From positions 720,895 through 784,894 of the forward strand of contig NZ_FYDE01000005.1 in NCBI RefSeq assembly GCF_900186535.1: 64,000 bases of DNA. Direction: 5' to 3'. Source of the DNA: Marasmitruncus massiliensis (GTDB taxonomy: Bacteria > Bacillota > Clostridia > Oscillospirales > Ruminococcaceae). The notes below the pieces were generated by a model. It was given only the letters and a program-made list of their open reading frames with translations. It ran no database searches and was not told the DNA's origin. Positions 6,591 to 13,382 of this stretch are shown here, piece after piece. Position numbers and translations under genes: made by a program. Every line of letters begins with the position of its first letter. Position 1 is the first letter of the stretch.

Positions 6591-6707
6591 TGTGGGGGTT
6601 ATGTGACTTAATCACTGTATGTAAACCTGTCGGGCGCTATAATGAGAATGAAAATCAGAATTGACATAAATTTAACAAAATCAATTACTGAAAGGTGGCT
6701 GCTTATT

Positions 6708-9137
6708 GTGCGTAAGATACTCATTGTCGGCGGGGTTGCGGGCGGCGCCTCCGCGGCGGCACGTATGCGCAGACTGGATGAACACGCGGAGATTATTCTG
6801 TTTGAGCGGGGGGAATATATTTCATTTGCCAACTGCGGGCTTCCCTATTATATCGGCGGGGAGATTACGGAGCGGTCGGCGCTGACTTTGCAGACTCCCG
6901 AGAGCTTCAACGCGCGTTTTCGGGTGGACGTGCGCGTGCAAAGTGAAGTCCTGTCAATTGACCGCGCGGGCAAAACGGTCTCCGTTCGGAATCTGAAAAC
7001 AGGAGAAGAATATACGGAAAGTTATGACAAGCTGATTCTGTCACCCGGTGCGGCGCCAGTGAAACCGGCGATCACAGGTGTGGACAGCGGCAGAGTTTTC
7101 ACGCTGCGCAATATCCCGGATACTTACCGGATCAAGGACTTTCTGGAAGAAAAGCATCCCAAAACGGCGGTCGTTGTGGGCGGTGGGTATATCGGCGTGG
7201 AAATGGCGGAAAATCTGGTGCACGCCGGAGTAAAAGTGACAATTGTTGAGTTTTCTGATCACCTGATTGCGCCGCTTGACTATGAGATGGCCTGCGATGT
7301 ACATAACCACGTACGGGAAAAGGGTGTAAAGCTGATTCTGGGCGACGGCGTCAAGGCGATTGACGATACCGGCAACGAACTCCTGATTACGCTCGGCTGT
7401 GGTGAAATTTCTGCGGATATGGCCATTCTCTCTGTTGGTGTGCGGCCGGATAGCCTGCTTGCCCGGAAAGCAGGGCTTGAGGTAAACGGACGCGGAGCCA
7501 TTCTCGTGAACGCGCAGATGCGGACCAGCGATTCGGATATCTATGCTGTGGGAGACGCGGTGGAGATCACCGATTTTGTAACGGGCGGACAGGGATATAT
7601 CCCGCTTGCGGGCCCCGCCAATAAACAGGGGCGGATTGCCGCGGACAATATCGCGGGGATTGCAAGTACTTACGGCGGCACGCAGGGCACAGGAATCCTG
7701 AAAGTCTTTGACCTTACGGTCGCAACTACCGGAATCACCGAAGCCAAGGCGCGGCAGGAGGGCCTGCCCTATGAAAAATCCTATACTTATTCCGCTTCCC
7801 ATGCCTCCTATTATCCGGGCGCGGTGAACATGTCGGTAAAGCTGCTGTTTGAAAAGGACGGCGGCAGGATTCTCGGCGCACAGATTGTAGGGTTCGACGG
7901 GGTAGACAAACGAATCGATGTAATTGCCACCGCCATGCGCGCCGGCATGACCGTATATGACCTGACCAAACTCGAATTGGCTTACGCACCGCCGTTTTCT
8001 TCCGCGAAGGACCCTGTCAATATGGCGGGATTTGTCGCTGAAAATGTGCTGGAAGGCAGGGTCAAGCTGTTCCACTGGAATGAGGTGGATACGCTCCCGC
8101 GCGACGGGAGTGTTACGCTTCTGGATGTGCGCACAGCGCCAGAGTTCCGCAACGGCGGTCCCGCCGGATTTGTCAATATTCCGCTTGATGAACTGCGCGC
8201 GCATGTCAGCGAACTGGACAGATCAAAGCCGGTCTATGCGACCTGCCAGATTGGTCTGCGCGGCTATGTGGCGTGCCGCATGCTCAGCCAGCTGGGGTTT
8301 GACTGCTATAACCTTTCCGGCGGCTGCCGCCTCTACAACAGTGTCTTTGGACGACAGGGAATTGTGAGGGAGGATGTTACCATGAACAGCGAGACTATGC
8401 TGCCGACCTCGGCTCCAACCGTCAAAATCAATGCCTGCGGCCTGCAGTGCCCCGGTCCGATTATGAAGCTCGGCGAGGCGGTCAAAAAAGCGGCCGACGG
8501 CGAAATCATCGAAATTCAGACAACAGACCCGGCCTTCTCCGCCGATGTGGAAGCATGGTGCCGCCGGACCGGAAACACCTTTGGAGGGGTCAAAAGCGAA
8601 AAAGGCGTGTATACCGCTTTGGTTAAAAAAGGCGGTGCAAGCGTGTGCGCGGCAGCCGGTTTAAAGGGCGACAAGAAAAACATCATTGTCTTTTCCGGCG
8701 ACCTCGATAAAGCGATCGCATCTTTTATTATCGCAAATGCCGCCGTTTCCATGGGACGTCAGGTATCGATGTTCTTTACCTTCTGGGGGCTGAATATCCT
8801 GCGCCGTCCCGAACGGGTTAAAACCGGCAAGGATTTCATGAGCCGTATGTTCGGGGCGATGATGCCCAGAGGCTCACAGAAGCTGTCCCTTTCCAAGATG
8901 AATATGGGCGGCATGGGCGCGAAGATGATCCGCGGAGTCATGAAGAACAAGCATATCGACAGCCTGGAAGACCTCATCAAAGCATCCCGGCAAAACGGCA
9001 TTGAATTGGTGGCCTGTTCTATGAGCATGGACGTGATGGGCATCAAGAAGGAAGAACTGATCGACGGAGTAAAGCTTGGTGGTGCTGCTGCAATGCTGGC
9101 AAACGCCGAGGAATCGGATATGTCGTTGTTTATCTGA
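6708..9137 (+). CDS. CoA-disulfide-reductase-like flavoenzyme fused to rhodanese, TusA and DsrE domains
   Basis: An 809-residue four-module sulfur-handling enzyme. Residues 1-440 form a pyridine-nucleotide-disulfide oxidoreductase of the CoA-disulfide reductase/NADH oxidase type: FAD motif VGGVAGGASAAA, the single redox cysteine at residue 43 in SFANCGLPYY, NAD motif VVVGGGYIGVE and FAD motif DIYAVGDAVE, then a dimerisation domain. A rhodanese domain (about 445-540) has the persulfide loop TCQIGLRG. A TusA/SirA domain (about 565-640) has CGLQCPGP. The C-terminal DsrE2-like domain (about 650-809) has VACSMSMDVMG. Together they suggest reduction of CoA or protein persulfides with sulfur relay through the downstream domains; the substrate is inferred. 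GTG 6708 is chosen because AAAGGTGG precedes it and it begins at the Rossmann strand. The gene is monocistronic, with a perfect terminator, upstream of cooS. Confidence 0.9.
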   Translation: MRKILIVGGVAGGASAAARMRRLDEHAEIILFERGEYISFANCGLPYYIGGEITERSALTLQTPESFNARFRVDVRVQSEVLSIDRAGKTVSVRNLKTGEEYTESYDKLILSPGAAPVKPAITGVDSGRVFTLRNIPDTYRIKDFLEEKHPKTAVVVGGGYIGVEMAENLVHAGVKVTIVEFSDHLIAPLDYEMACDVHNHVREKGVKLILGDGVKAIDDTGNELLITLGCGEISADMAILSVGVRPDSLLARKAGLEVNGRGAILVNAQMRTSDSDIYAVGDAVEITDFVTGGQGYIPLAGPANKQGRIAADNIAGIASTYGGTQGTGILKVFDLTVATTGITEAKARQEGLPYEKSYTYSASHASYYPGAVNMSVKLLFEKDGGRILGAQIVGFDGVDKRIDVIATAMRAGMTVYDLTKLELAYAPPFSSAKDPVNMAGFVAENVLEGRVKLFHWNEVDTLPRDGSVTLLDVRTAPEFRNGGPAGFVNIPLDELRAHVSELDRSKPVYATCQIGLRGYVACRMLSQLGFDCYNLSGGCRLYNSVFGRQGIVREDVTMNSETMLPTSAPTVKINACGLQCPGPIMKLGEAVKKAADGEIIEIQTTDPAFSADVEAWCRRTGNTFGGVKSEKGVYTALVKKGGASVCAAAGLKGDKKNIIVFSGDLDKAIASFIIANAAVSMGRQVSMFFTFWGLNILRRPERVKTGKDFMSRMFGAMMPRGSQKLSLSKMNMGGMGAKMIRGVMKNKHIDSLEDLIKASRQNGIELVACSMSMDVMGIKKEELIDGVKLGGAAAMLANAEESDMSLFI

Positions 9138-9283: not shown

Positions 9284-11197
9284 ATGTCTGTTAAAGTTCT
9301 GCAAACAAAAGAAGGACGCATGAGTTATCATGATTCCGTTGAAGAAATGCTCATACGAATCAGGGATGACGGCCTTTCCAGCGTTTTTTCCAGATGGGGT
9401 GAACAGGAAAAAATCCGCTGCAAGTTCTGCCTGGAGGGGTTAAGCTGCCAGCTGTGCACCCAGGGCCCCTGCCGCATCAGTGAAAAAACCGGAGCGGTCA
9501 AGGGTGTCTGCGGAATCGGCCCGGACGCAATGGCGATGCGGAACCTGCTGATGCGCAATATTATGGGCGCGGCAACCTATGCGCACCATGCCTATGAAAC
9601 ATTCCGGACGCTCAAAGCTACCGGCGAGGGCAAAACGCCGTTTCAGATTACCGATGTAAACAAGCTGAAAACGATGTGCCAGAAAGTCGGGATTGACACC
9701 AATCAAGAAGTCAATCAGCTGGCTGTTCAGCTGGCGGAGCTGTTCGACGCGGAACTAAGCGTCAATCCGGATCAGGACAGTATCATGGTAAAGGCCTTTG
9801 CGCCAAAGAAACGGATCCCGGTCTGGAAGGAACTGCATATCTATCCGTCGGGTGTGCAGCACGAGGTGGAGCTCTGCATCGCAAGCTGCCTGACAAACGT
9901 GGACGGAGACTATGTCTCGCTGGCGAAAAAAGCGTTGCGGCTTGGCCTGTCGACCATTTACACCGCGCAGATCGGGTTGGAAATGACACAGGACATCCTG
10001 TTCGGTACGCCGATGCCGCATGAAGTAACTGTGGACCTTGGCATTATGGACCCCGATTATGTGAATATCGCTTTCAACGGGCACCAGCCGTGGATCGGCG
10101 TAGCAACGCTGCAGAAAGCAAAACAGGCAGACTATCAGGAGATGGCAAAAAAGGCCGGTGCGAAAGGGATTCATATCGTCGGCTCGATTGAAACGGGGCA
10201 GGAGCTGCTTCAGAGATTCAAAGTGGACGACGTGTTTGTGGGTCTGATGGGCAACTGGCTGGCGATTGAACCGTTCCTGGCGACCGGTACCGTGGATGCC
10301 CTCGTCATGGAAGAAAACTGTTCACCGCCCGCCATTGACCAGTATGCGGAGAAATATCAGGTCGCACTTGTAAGCGTGAGCACGATTATCGGCGTGCCGG
10401 GCGCACAGCACGCCATGCCTTATTATCCGGCGAAAGCGGACGAAATGGCAGATCAATGCATTCAGATAGCCATTGAGAACTTCAAAAAACGACATGGATA
10501 CGTTGCCCCGATGGTTCCCAAAAGAACGCAGAAGGCAATTGCGGGATTTTCCACCGAGGCGGTTTTAGGCGCCATTGGCAACGACCTGAACACGCTGGTT
10601 GACGTGATCGCCAAAGGCCAGATAAAAGGCGTTGTAGCTCTGGCAAACTGCTCGACTTTACGGAACGGGCCGCAGGACTGGAACACCGTTAATCTGACCT
10701 ATGAGCTGATTAAAAAGGACATCCTTGTGGTTGCCGGAGGCTGCGGAAATCACGGCCTGGAAGTAGCCGGCCTTTGCAGCCTTGACGCCGTTGAGCTTGC
10801 CGGAGACGGCCTGAAAGGCGTTTGCAGGGCGTTGGGGATTCCCCCGGTGTTAAGCTTCGGCACCTGCACGGATACAGGACGCATCTCCATGCTGGTTACC
10901 GCGCTTGCGGACCATTTGAATGTCGATATTCCCGATCTTCCGATTGCGGTAACCGCGCCTGAGTGGATGGAGCAGAAAGCGACCATTGACGGCATCTTCG
11001 CGGTTGCCTACGGGGCGTACACGCACCTTTCTCCCACACCGTTTATTACAGGCGCGCCCAACCTCGTAAAACTTGTAACGCGGGATGTGGAAGGTCTGAC
11101 CGGCGGAAAGGTTGCCTTGGGGGACGACCCTGTTGAAGTGGCCAAAGGAATCGAAGACCACATTCTAAAAAAACGGAAAAAATTGGGCCTCAGTTAA
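9284..11197 (+). CDS. cooS: Anaerobic CO-dehydrogenase catalytic subunit homologue (CooS) with altered C-cluster
   Basis: A 637-residue protein of the CooS/nickel CO dehydrogenase family, full length for the family. B-cluster cysteines are present at 55, 58, 63 and 76. The D-cluster region reads RCKFC (Cys46-X2-Cys49) rather than the wide CX7C spacing, with Ser54 at the second classical position; CX2C is known from [2Fe-2S] D-clusters. C-cluster ligands present are His267, Cys346, Cys456, Cys487 and Cys528, and the catalytic Lys565. The key exception is VGSIETGQE at 299-307, where canonical enzymes have VGICCTGNE: the cysteine that binds the unique iron is Glu303, and its neighbour is Ile302. 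Activity on CO is therefore uncertain. No cooC, cooF or acsB lies nearby. The ATG has ATAAGGAGG upstream. Confidence 0.88.
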   Translation: MSVKVLQTKEGRMSYHDSVEEMLIRIRDDGLSSVFSRWGEQEKIRCKFCLEGLSCQLCTQGPCRISEKTGAVKGVCGIGPDAMAMRNLLMRNIMGAATYAHHAYETFRTLKATGEGKTPFQITDVNKLKTMCQKVGIDTNQEVNQLAVQLAELFDAELSVNPDQDSIMVKAFAPKKRIPVWKELHIYPSGVQHEVELCIASCLTNVDGDYVSLAKKALRLGLSTIYTAQIGLEMTQDILFGTPMPHEVTVDLGIMDPDYVNIAFNGHQPWIGVATLQKAKQADYQEMAKKAGAKGIHIVGSIETGQELLQRFKVDDVFVGLMGNWLAIEPFLATGTVDALVMEENCSPPAIDQYAEKYQVALVSVSTIIGVPGAQHAMPYYPAKADEMADQCIQIAIENFKKRHGYVAPMVPKRTQKAIAGFSTEAVLGAIGNDLNTLVDVIAKGQIKGVVALANCSTLRNGPQDWNTVNLTYELIKKDILVVAGGCGNHGLEVAGLCSLDAVELAGDGLKGVCRALGIPPVLSFGTCTDTGRISMLVTALADHLNVDIPDLPIAVTAPEWMEQKATIDGIFAVAYGAYTHLSPTPFITGAPNLVKLVTRDVEGLTGGKVALGDDPVEVAKGIEDHILKKRKKLGLS

Positions 11198-11214
11198 AGG
11201 TATGCTTTTCCTGC

Positions 11215-11243
11215 TTGACTTTTTTTCGGCACTGTGCTAGACT
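11215..11243 (+). promoter_or_regulatory. Promoter of the efflux-gene leader
   Basis: TTGACT (11215-11220), 17-base spacer, TAGACT (11238-11243) with an extended TGC just before it. Transcription would begin near 11250, giving a leader of about 410 bases before the efflux gene. Confidence 0.8.
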
Positions 11244-11273
11244 CAAACAATCAAATGAACAAGGAGAGGGATT

Positions 11274-11291
11274 ATGCGTCTGAAGTTCTAA
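11274..11291 (+). CDS. Five-residue leader peptide MRLKF
   Basis: A minimal reading frame, ATG CGT CTG AAG TTC TAA, with a strong AAGGAGAGGG site seven bases upstream and about 24 bases after the predicted transcription start. MRLKF contains Arg-Leu-Lys, the +X+ type motif known to cause macrolide-dependent ribosome stalling in erm-type leader peptides such as those with MRLR. It precedes an intrinsic terminator and a Mef-like efflux gene, so its likely job is to sense ribosome-targeting drug and control read-through. That role is inferred from sequence and context; the peptide itself would have no other function. Confidence 0.7.
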   Translation: MRLKF

Positions 11292-11526
11292 TAATCAGCC
11301 TGCAGCTGCATCGGACACCCGGAAAAAGGGGTTTTTTGTCGTGCAACGAAAGCGGTCGATTATCAGAGCAAAGACCAGCGGCCTTACAGCGCCGTATCTC
11401 TTTCTGCTCACTGTCGCCATGCTTTTGCGCGGGCAAAGACCTAAACCGGTTTTTGTCCGCGTTTTTTGTTTTGTAATCCGCGGCATCTGCGTGATTCCAA
11501 AAGGTTCTGAAAGGAGGATGGGCACG
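11292..11526 (+). promoter_or_regulatory. Structured leader between MRLKF and the second small frame
   Basis: No stable gene is visible here. The RNA has several possible stems. CGGACA at 11312-11317 is complementary to TGTCCG in the 3' arm of the downstream terminator (11454-11459) and could seed an antiterminator. A 79-codon frame starting at GTG 11341 lacks a ribosome site and runs through the terminator, so I do not call it. Confidence 0.45.
11428..11467 (+). terminator. Attenuator terminator in the efflux-gene leader
   Basis: Fourteen-base-pair stem CGCGGGCAAAGACC/GGTTTTTGTCCGCG (two G-U pairs) followed by six T. It lies between the promoter/leader peptide and the efflux gene with no complete gene in between, the arrangement expected of transcription attenuation. 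Confidence 0.85.
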
Positions 11527-11580
11527 ATGCGTTTTTTCCAAAAACCATGGGATAGAAAGCAGCGTAAACAACCAAACTAG
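11527..11580 (+). CDS. Possible 17-residue leader peptide
   Basis: MRFFQKPWDRKQRKQPN with AAGGAGG nine bases upstream, placed after the attenuator and 83 bases before the efflux gene start. It is rich in Lys/Arg/Gln and ends QRKQPN. The near-ideal ribosome site suggests it is translated and may set ribosome loading or structure ahead of the efflux gene. It could equally be an accidental short frame. An in-frame ATG at 11518 touches the Shine-Dalgarno. Confidence 0.45.
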   Translation: MRFFQKPWDRKQRKQPN

Positions 11581-11663
11581 GTACATCCAATGAAAAGGTG
11601 TGCCTTATCTGCCAACAAAACGGCGGCTCTTGCCCGCTGTTTATCACTTAGGAGGAACACCGC

Positions 11664-12893
11664 TTGAATCATTTGAAAAATTGGAAAAAGACATTTGCCA
11701 TTATTTATATCGGCCAGGCATTTTCGCTGATTGGATCGGGTGCGGTCCAGTTTTCGATTATCTGGTGGCTGACCGTGAAAACCGATTCGGCGATTGTGCT
11801 GACGATCGCATCCATTGTCGGGCTGCTGCCGCAGGCGCTGATTGGCCCGTTTGCGGGCGTATGGGTGGACCGGTACGACCGGAAAACAATTATGATAGTC
11901 GCCGACGGGGTGGTTGCGCTGTCCAGCGGCGCGCTTGCCGCCGCGTTTTTGTTCGGTGACCCGCCGCTTTGGTTTTTCTATCTGGTTGCATTTATCCGCG
12001 CGCTGGGCAGTACCTTTCACGCTCCTGCCATGCAGGCAAGCATCCCGCTGCTGGTCCCTCAGGAAAAGCTGACGCAGGCGGGCGGCTGGGGGCAGCTGGT
12101 CAACTCCGTAAGCTTTATGGCAGGGCCTGTCATTGGCGCGGCGCTGATGGGAGTCCTTCCCCTGCACAGCATCATGTTTGTCGATATTCTTGGCGCGGCA
12201 TTCGCCATTTCCGCTTTGCTGCTGGTCAAATTTCCAAAGGCACCGGTCCAGACCGTAAAGCTGCATCTGTTTGAGGACCTGAAACAGGGGCTTCGTGCAA
12301 TGCGCTCCAACAGGCCATTGATGGCGGTAACCATTCCCGTGCTGGTGGCCTGCGTCGTCTACATGCCGCTGGGGTCGCTGCTGCCGCTTTTAATCCGTAC
12401 CCATTACAGTGGGACTGCATGGCACAGCGGCGTAAGCGAATTCCTGTTTGCGGCGGGGATGGCGGCGTCGGCGTCGGCCATTGGCATCTGGGGCGGGATG
12501 AAACGGCAGTTTCTGATGATTTCCATCGGCCTTTCCGCACTGGGCCTGTGCGCCGCGCTTTCGGGAATGCTGCCCGGTTCCTGGTTTACTGTTTTTGCGG
12601 CGATTTCCTTTATCATGGGCGGTACCGGCACCTTCTTCAATGTGCCTTATACCGCTTATATTCAGCGTACGGTGCCGCCGGAATCCATGGGCAAGGTGTT
12701 TTCGTTGGTCGTGAGCGCCATGAGCCTCGCCTCGCCTGCCGGCTTGATGCTGGCGGGTCCTGTATCGGAAGTTGTGGGGATTACCAACTGGTTTACCGTT
12801 TCCGGCATTCTGATGTTTTTGACCGGTATTATCTGCTACTTCGTCACTCGGCGGTATGACCGTCCAGCCGAGACCTCGCAGCCAAATCAATGA
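11664..12893 (+). CDS. MFS drug efflux protein, Mef (DHA3) type
   Basis: A 409-residue inner-membrane proton-driven exporter with about 12 transmembrane helices. It resembles the macrolide efflux protein MefA along its length: the opening NWKKTFAIIYIGQAFSLIGSG, the TM2-3 loop FAGVWVDRYDRKTIMI, then RALGSTFHAPAMQASIPLLVP and, near the end, GKVFSLVVSAMSLASPAGLMLAGP. Start is TTG 11664 with TTAGGAGGA at ideal spacing. Context is telling: a drug-sensing type leader peptide and intrinsic terminator lie upstream and no regulator gene is present. Substrate is inferred to be a macrolide or other ribosome-targeting compound; other hydrophobic drugs are possible. Similarity to MefA is moderate, so it is not a known acquired mef allele. 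Confidence 0.88.
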   Translation: MNHLKNWKKTFAIIYIGQAFSLIGSGAVQFSIIWWLTVKTDSAIVLTIASIVGLLPQALIGPFAGVWVDRYDRKTIMIVADGVVALSSGALAAAFLFGDPPLWFFYLVAFIRALGSTFHAPAMQASIPLLVPQEKLTQAGGWGQLVNSVSFMAGPVIGAALMGVLPLHSIMFVDILGAAFAISALLLVKFPKAPVQTVKLHLFEDLKQGLRAMRSNRPLMAVTIPVLVACVVYMPLGSLLPLLIRTHYSGTAWHSGVSEFLFAAGMAASASAIGIWGGMKRQFLMISIGLSALGLCAALSGMLPGSWFTVFAAISFIMGGTGTFFNVPYTAYIQRTVPPESMGKVFSLVVSAMSLASPAGLMLAGPVSEVVGITNWFTVSGILMFLTGIICYFVTRRYDRPAETSQPNQ

Positions 12894-13127: not shown

Positions 13128-13382
13128 ATGGGAAGAGGCACCTTTATTTCAATCATTGCTTTGTTGGTTGCAATTGCAGGGGCAATTGTAGCTTTTGCGG
13201 CCTATTTTAAATATCGGAACTTTGTGCTTTGTGACGACATGGAGGATGATATGGAGGACGATGATCTGTCGGATATTGACTATTACTCCACTTCGGTTCC
13301 GGACAGTACCGAAGCGGAGGAAACCGAAGAAGAAAGCCAGCCCTCTGAGGACACTCAAACCGATAAAGCCATGGAAGAATAG
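13128..13382 (+). CDS. Small single-span membrane protein with acidic tail
   Basis: 84 residues: one transmembrane helix at about 6-27 (FISIIALLVAIAGAIVAFAAYF), a short basic stop, then a very acidic tail with DDMEDDMEDDD and a Glu/Ser/Thr-rich end. It resembles the small hypothetical membrane proteins common in Clostridia; no function is recognised. It has its own consensus promoter, AGGAGG ribosome site and terminator, so it is likely expressed. Confidence 0.8.
   Translation: MGRGTFISIIALLVAIAGAIVAFAAYFKYRNFVLCDDMEDDMEDDDLSDIDYYSTSVPDSTEAEETEEESQPSEDTQTDKAMEE

Follow-up and report, generated by a model that had tools for sequence, protein, structure and literature searches.

Does the mef-type efflux gene in the chromosome of Marasmitruncus massiliensis respond to drugs through a leader peptide of five codons? 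The stretch of DNA that we analysed (hereafter the window) comprises 64,000 nt of contig NZ_FYDE01000005.1 (positions 720,895-784,894, forward strand, assembly GCF_900186535.1). A first-pass annotation had read its short frame, MRLKF, as a drug-sensing leader that switches on the efflux gene by transcription antitermination. We consider it probable that transcription of this gene, a chromosomal member of the Mef(B) clade, is controlled by a ribosome-mediated attenuator, for which we infer stalling, a drug as the trigger, termination in the cell and antitermination.

Layout of the locus and its rarity

On the + strand, a promoter, a Shine-Dalgarno (SD) sequence, the MRLKF frame, a 15-pair terminator and a second small frame are followed by a TTG-started gene for an MFS transporter (Table 1). 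Transcripts would start at about position 11250. The promoter, which scores best within 11190-11640, the five-codon frame behind a strong ribosome site and the Mef-like gene after the terminator are all as first annotated; the terminator stem with its T6 was also recovered, but it counts 15 pairs instead of 14. The predicted stability of the stem is about -25 kcal/mol.

Table 1. Features of the leader region and the efflux gene, numbered by position in the window.
Feature	Position	Strand	Basis
Sigma-70-type promoter TTGACT-N17-TAGACT, TG ahead of the -10	11215-11243	+	promoter scan
Shine-Dalgarno AAGGAGAGG	11261-11269	+
Leader frame ATG CGT CTG AAG TTC TAA TAA (MRLKF codons 11274-11288)	11274-11294	+
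R1/R2-like long hairpin; its 5' arm contains the final leader codons and the stop	11285-11369	+	predicted fold
L047-like segment; it closes with TTTTTTGTCGTGC (from 11332), which is similar to TTTTTTGTTGTGC in Mef(A)-type leaders	11312-11345	+
CGGACA, candidate antiterminator strand of the first-pass annotation	11312-11317	+	complement of 11454-11459
GCAAAGACC, identical to 11433-11441 within the terminator 5' arm	11368-11376	+	direct repeat
Rho-independent terminator: 15-pair stem 11427-11462, loop 6, T6 11462-11467	11427-11467	+
Second small frame MRFFQKPWDRKQRKQPN, with SD AAAGGAGG at 11510-11517	11527-11580	+
Mef(B)-clade MFS transporter, TTG start, SD AGGAGG	11664-12893	+

The promoter starts 17 bases past the stop of a gene for an anaerobic CO dehydrogenase, which ends at 11197. 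The terminator could be the 3' end signal of this gene, with promoter and MRLKF being incidental, and the only other + strand candidate in 11197-11427 is indeed a single 5-pair site at 11378-11395. Yet the promoter and an SD-equipped +x+ frame (+ standing for Arg or Lys) intervene, and no promoter scoring at least 9/12 lies between the terminator and the efflux gene. We regard this explanation as unlikely, also in the light of the related loci described below. Homologues of the CO dehydrogenase gene occur in three of the ten other genomes of the genus, at 35-37% identity, and are so sparse and distant that synteny gives no date for the arrival of the efflux gene.

Downstream of the efflux gene, a + strand frame of 84 aa (13128-13382), which matched no Pfam or NCBIfam profile, is followed by two - strand genes, for malic enzyme and for fumarase. 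There is no msr-type gene after the mef-type gene, and the mef -> mel/msr(D) arrangement of mef(E)-type attenuators is absent. No frame that overlaps the leader, whichever its strand, matched Pfam, and an Rfam scan of the window returned nothing at gathering scores. Elsewhere in the window, a single 831-aa protein (6642-9137) fuses CoA-disulfide-reductase-like, rhodanese, TusA and DsrE2-like domains.

The promoter is the sole promoter-like site in 10800-12000 on both strands, a count that alone is not above chance (1 observed, 0.7 +/- 0.9 in shuffles). The whole window holds 84 such sites (50 on the + strand, 34 on the - strand). At three of them, a frame of 3-12 codons with an SD follows after 10-70 nt; only the MRLKF site also has a terminator. 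In 40 dinucleotide shuffles of the window (80 strands), 33 cases of promoter plus frame arose, three with a +x+ motif and two with a terminator, the latter counted by a slightly looser rule than in the real window. The assembly of promoter, leader and terminator is rarer than in shuffles, a rarity that serves as a guide and not as a probability, since the shuffles are poorer in promoter-like sites (23.4 per strand against 50 and 34) and the place had been picked by a reader among many.

The efflux gene and the leaders of its relatives

The best NCBIfam model for the efflux protein is Mef(B) (NF000051), with 524.3 bits against a curated cut-off of 800, followed by Mef(A) with 312 bits (cut-off 675). 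A tree built from 41 mef-type proteins, whose gene starts are approximate because N-termini were placed by motif, puts it into a group of 12 rows with Mef(B) of E. coli (support 100/99), which excludes the Mef(A) rows. Its closest relatives found are 61% identical, and the E. coli plasmid Mef(B), at 55.5%, is the best among the plasmid matches listed (1404 records); the plasmid search has one further record, in the 60-80% identity band, outside the 40 listed of the 1404. No Mef relatives were found in viral contigs, and a search of genome contigs yielded a single one with 32% identity. The 41 rows, used for both tree and survey, represent L005, L006 and L051-L055 by L007, of which they are near copies (L numbers denote loci), and leave out genes with internal stops or partial ones (L013, L068), those of at most 33% identity (L012, L014-L031) and second hits without a locus.

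By a survey rule of an SD, a frame of 4-10 codons and a terminator before the gene, 16 of the 41 mef genes have the layout, compared with 5 of 205 upstream regions after shuffling. Near copies from the Mef(A) clade count among the 16, as do two frames that convince less (MVVVSKDRRR in L004, MSSIR in L011). Among the 25 rows without the layout by this rule, five have leader candidates but failed at the terminator (L043, L044, L050, L075, L078). The recurrence ahead of related mef genes argues against a terminator that belongs to the CO dehydrogenase gene, as does the gene upstream of E. coli mef(B), which is an IS26 transposase.

The peptides themselves differ. Within the Mef(B) clade, the leader of E. 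coli mef(B) is MYLIFM and that of L043 and L044 is MYYIFL; the next branch beside the clade, L047, has MWMPCMFL, and L057 has MASMFL. Nine genes of the Mef(A) clade carry MTASMRLR, MTASIRLR, MYSVRLR or MTHSVRLR. This distribution suggests an exchange of leader peptides among mef transporters that keep the layout of promoter, leader and terminator, in which case the sensing of drugs could be modular and lend itself to comparative tests.

Several observations were made on individual relatives. The sister mef genes L069 and L072 have a common SD context and different peptides (MFLFV and MYSVRLR). On the E. coli plasmid NZ_AP027473.1 (L032, 2312-2332), the MYLIFM frame ahead of mef(B) is the same as the known leader of msr(D) (PMC10314930); a strong hairpin lies at its end and a terminator after it. 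A non-exhaustive literature search did not find MYLIFM ahead of mef(B) in print. A near-identical mef copy present in several genera (read in L005-L007 and L076) has the candidate leader MLICVR with a GTG start; the best-hit scores of L051-L055 match those of this copy, and its relative L050 has the candidate MLIRVRK. In the Mef(B) clade, L063 and L064 directly follow a gene whose end resembles a glycosyltransferase, as we take its HHGGAGTT motif to indicate.

The RNA behind the leader was compared with that of 14 other leaders by local alignment. L047 and L057 were the two top scorers, with only 1 and 3 of 3000 shuffles, respectively, as good as the real alignment; for the other 12, between 0 and 114 of 300 shuffles were as good. 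The motif at the end of the L047-like segment lies at +58 in the window. Seven leaders of the Mef(A) clade have a twin that differs by one letter (+66 to +69), and the E. coli mef(B) leader has a looser counterpart (+51); a pattern for it was found in 11 of 20000 shuffles. Shared origin or constraint is moderately supported as the source of this likeness.

The first-pass annotation had called for MRLKF or MRLR to be conserved upstream of orthologous efflux genes. MRLKF was not conserved: none of the relatives and none of the 293 other genomes searched had it. The nearest efflux relatives found are, at 61% identity, too distant for a proper comparison among close relatives. An SD-plus-frame pattern for MRL[K/R]F, run on 294 genomes including its own, matched eight, its own included (backward control 1/294). 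The single MRLRF-stop match among the seven others lies inside a 519-aa frame and was rejected. Searching the same 294 genomes with the leader DNA returned its own genome and one 27-base match. Among the genomes searched, MRLKF is so far known from this one alone. A literature search for words beginning with MRLKF or MRLRF, which strings inside longer words would escape, found none.

Folding of the leader RNA

The long hairpin at 11285-11369, with a predicted energy of -25.9 kcal/mol, is modestly better than shuffles (z -2.29, equalled in 4 of 200), and 11285-11300 is predicted to pair with 11354-11369 at 0.61-0.68. The pairing of the R1 arm alone was equalled in 82 of 500 shuffles, and the entire leader before the terminator (11250-11420), with a z of -1.06 (27/200), does not exceed shuffles.

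CGGACA at 11312-11317 had been named as the strand that could pair with the terminator's 3' arm. The complementarity to TGTCCG (11454-11459) exists, but a role as antiterminator found no support: 256 of 500 shuffles form a pairing of this dIR1/dIR2 type as well as the window does, and the fold at equilibrium shows no switch. In all eight Mef(A)-type control loci, a strand just behind the leader pairs with the terminator 3' arm and the U tract, at a level equalled in at most 6 of 500 shuffles. The corresponding counts are 23 for E. coli mef(B), 415 for L047, 318 for L057, 367 for L043 and 357 for L044. An anti-attenuator strand of the mef(E) type has no significant counterpart in the window RNA. 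Two other candidates were rejected, namely 11328-11346 with the terminator 5' arm as antiterminator (118 of 1000 shuffles as good) and the region of the direct repeat at 11368-11376 as competitor for the terminator 3' arm (duplex equalled in 281 of 1000).

For 12 loci, we masked the footprint of a stalled ribosome and compared the occupancy of the terminator; L043, L044 and L075 fall outside this computation, and L075 also outside the pairing test, since they have no terminator above the script's cut. Nine of the 11 other leaders switch: occupancy drops to at most 0.02 in all eight Mef(A)-type controls and from 0.88 to 0.15 in E. coli mef(B). The window (0.91 free, 0.89 stalled), L047 (0.92 in both states) and L057 (0.97 in both) do not. 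These three may use a kinetic route or another pairing partner, or their leader may act otherwise.

That stalling leaves the equilibrium fold unswitched is a point in favour of the terminator serving the CO dehydrogenase gene. It also favours a leader that mainly protects the mRNA, the stalled ribosome blocking decay and the terminator being a fixed partial stop. We consider this second possibility rather improbable, as nine of 11 other leaders switch under the identical computation and a strong terminator that is never relieved would presumably be costly. Still less credible is that MRLKF is a chance frame and that the second small frame, at 11527, regulates the gene by translation attenuation. 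Its SD is good and its peptide is rich in basic residues, but the RNA that separates the terminator from the gene is no more structured than shuffles (z -0.78, 44/200).

Of the drug-sensing antitermination first proposed, CGGACA as antiterminator found no support, but the class of explanation, a leader attenuator, is likely correct in view of the recurrent layout and the RNA likeness.

The peptide and known attenuators

The peptide, of the +x+ type, is very short, and the locus is best read as a variant of the ribosome-mediated attenuators described for mef(E), erm(K) and msr(D). Motifs of the type +X(+) stall macrolide-bound ribosomes (PMC6238534). The Arg-X-Arg/Lys motif that had been recognized in MRLKF agrees with this rule, with the stall motifs described in PMC8298421 and with the end of Msr(A)L, MTASMRLK (PMC4335068, Table 3).

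Under the attenuator reading, a ribosome without drug would translate MRLKF and depart, the R1/R2 hairpin would form and RNA polymerase would halt near 11467. With a macrolide or ketolide bound, the ribosome would be expected to come to a halt with MRL-tRNA in its P site and Lys as the next residue. Stalled at codon 3 and covering about 11262-11297, it would open the base of the hairpin, as in the mef(E) model (PMC4335068), and keep R1/R2 open, so that some polymerases could pass.

Which drug would act depends on what precedes the motif. For ErmDL, PMC8298421 describes Arg-Leu-Arg as critical with telithromycin and largely dispensable with erythromycin, whose action depends on residues before the motif, Ser4 and Met5 among them. 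In MRLKF nothing but the start Met precedes the motif, from which we predict a response of the ketolide type. According to work cited in PMC8298421, short MRLR peptides stall ribosomes that carry a macrolide; against a working pentapeptide stands MTHSMRLR, which PMC4335068 gives as the shortest Erm(K)L permitting induction. We tentatively propose that MRLKF might be a natural arrest leader cut down to the +x+ core, whose nascent chain of three residues could hardly reach the drug, and which would be a native example of stalling by allostery and respond to ketolides more than to erythromycin, and that the Mef(B) clade might have swapped its sensor, hydrophobic MYxIF against RLK, on an RNA scaffold partly kept. 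A natural five-codon leader would help to decide whether minimal MRLR-like motifs act as sensors in cells. We do not claim MRLKF as the shortest known leader; a Listeria ABC-F gene has a leader of three codons.

Among known systems, the mef(E)/mef(A) attenuator with its leader MTASMRLR (Chancey 2015, PMC4335068) likewise combines a promoter, an SD, a short R-L-[R/K] leader and a mef gene. It further shares the sequence TTTTTTGT[T/C]GTGC after the leader and a 15-pair terminator, which lies 149-188 nt past the leader start in the loci measured and 153 nt in the window; a hairpin at the leader end, as it and the Mef(A)-type controls have, is predicted for the window. The leader in the window is shorter, with five codons against eight, and its RNA has no significant equivalent of the dIR1/dIR2 antiterminator. 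Past the terminator, a second small frame lies ahead of the gene, whose transporter is of the Mef(B) clade and which no msr-type gene follows.

The erm(K)/erm(D) leaders, such as MTHSMRLRFPTLNQ, contain MRLRF as residues 5-9, which is MRLKF with Arg in place of Lys, and erm(K) is under transcription attenuation (PMC4335068; PMC8298421). In contrast to them, the window peptide has no residues before MRL, and the gene they regulate is a methyltransferase. In the msr(D) attenuator (Fostier 2023, PMC10314930), stalling relieves an intrinsic terminator, as we infer for the window, but the leader MYLIFM is hydrophobic and is described as stalling at its stop codon, whereas MRLKF is a +x+ peptide. 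The two systems are further linked by the plasmid-borne mef(B) of E. coli, which is a clade-mate of the window gene and is itself preceded by MYLIFM.
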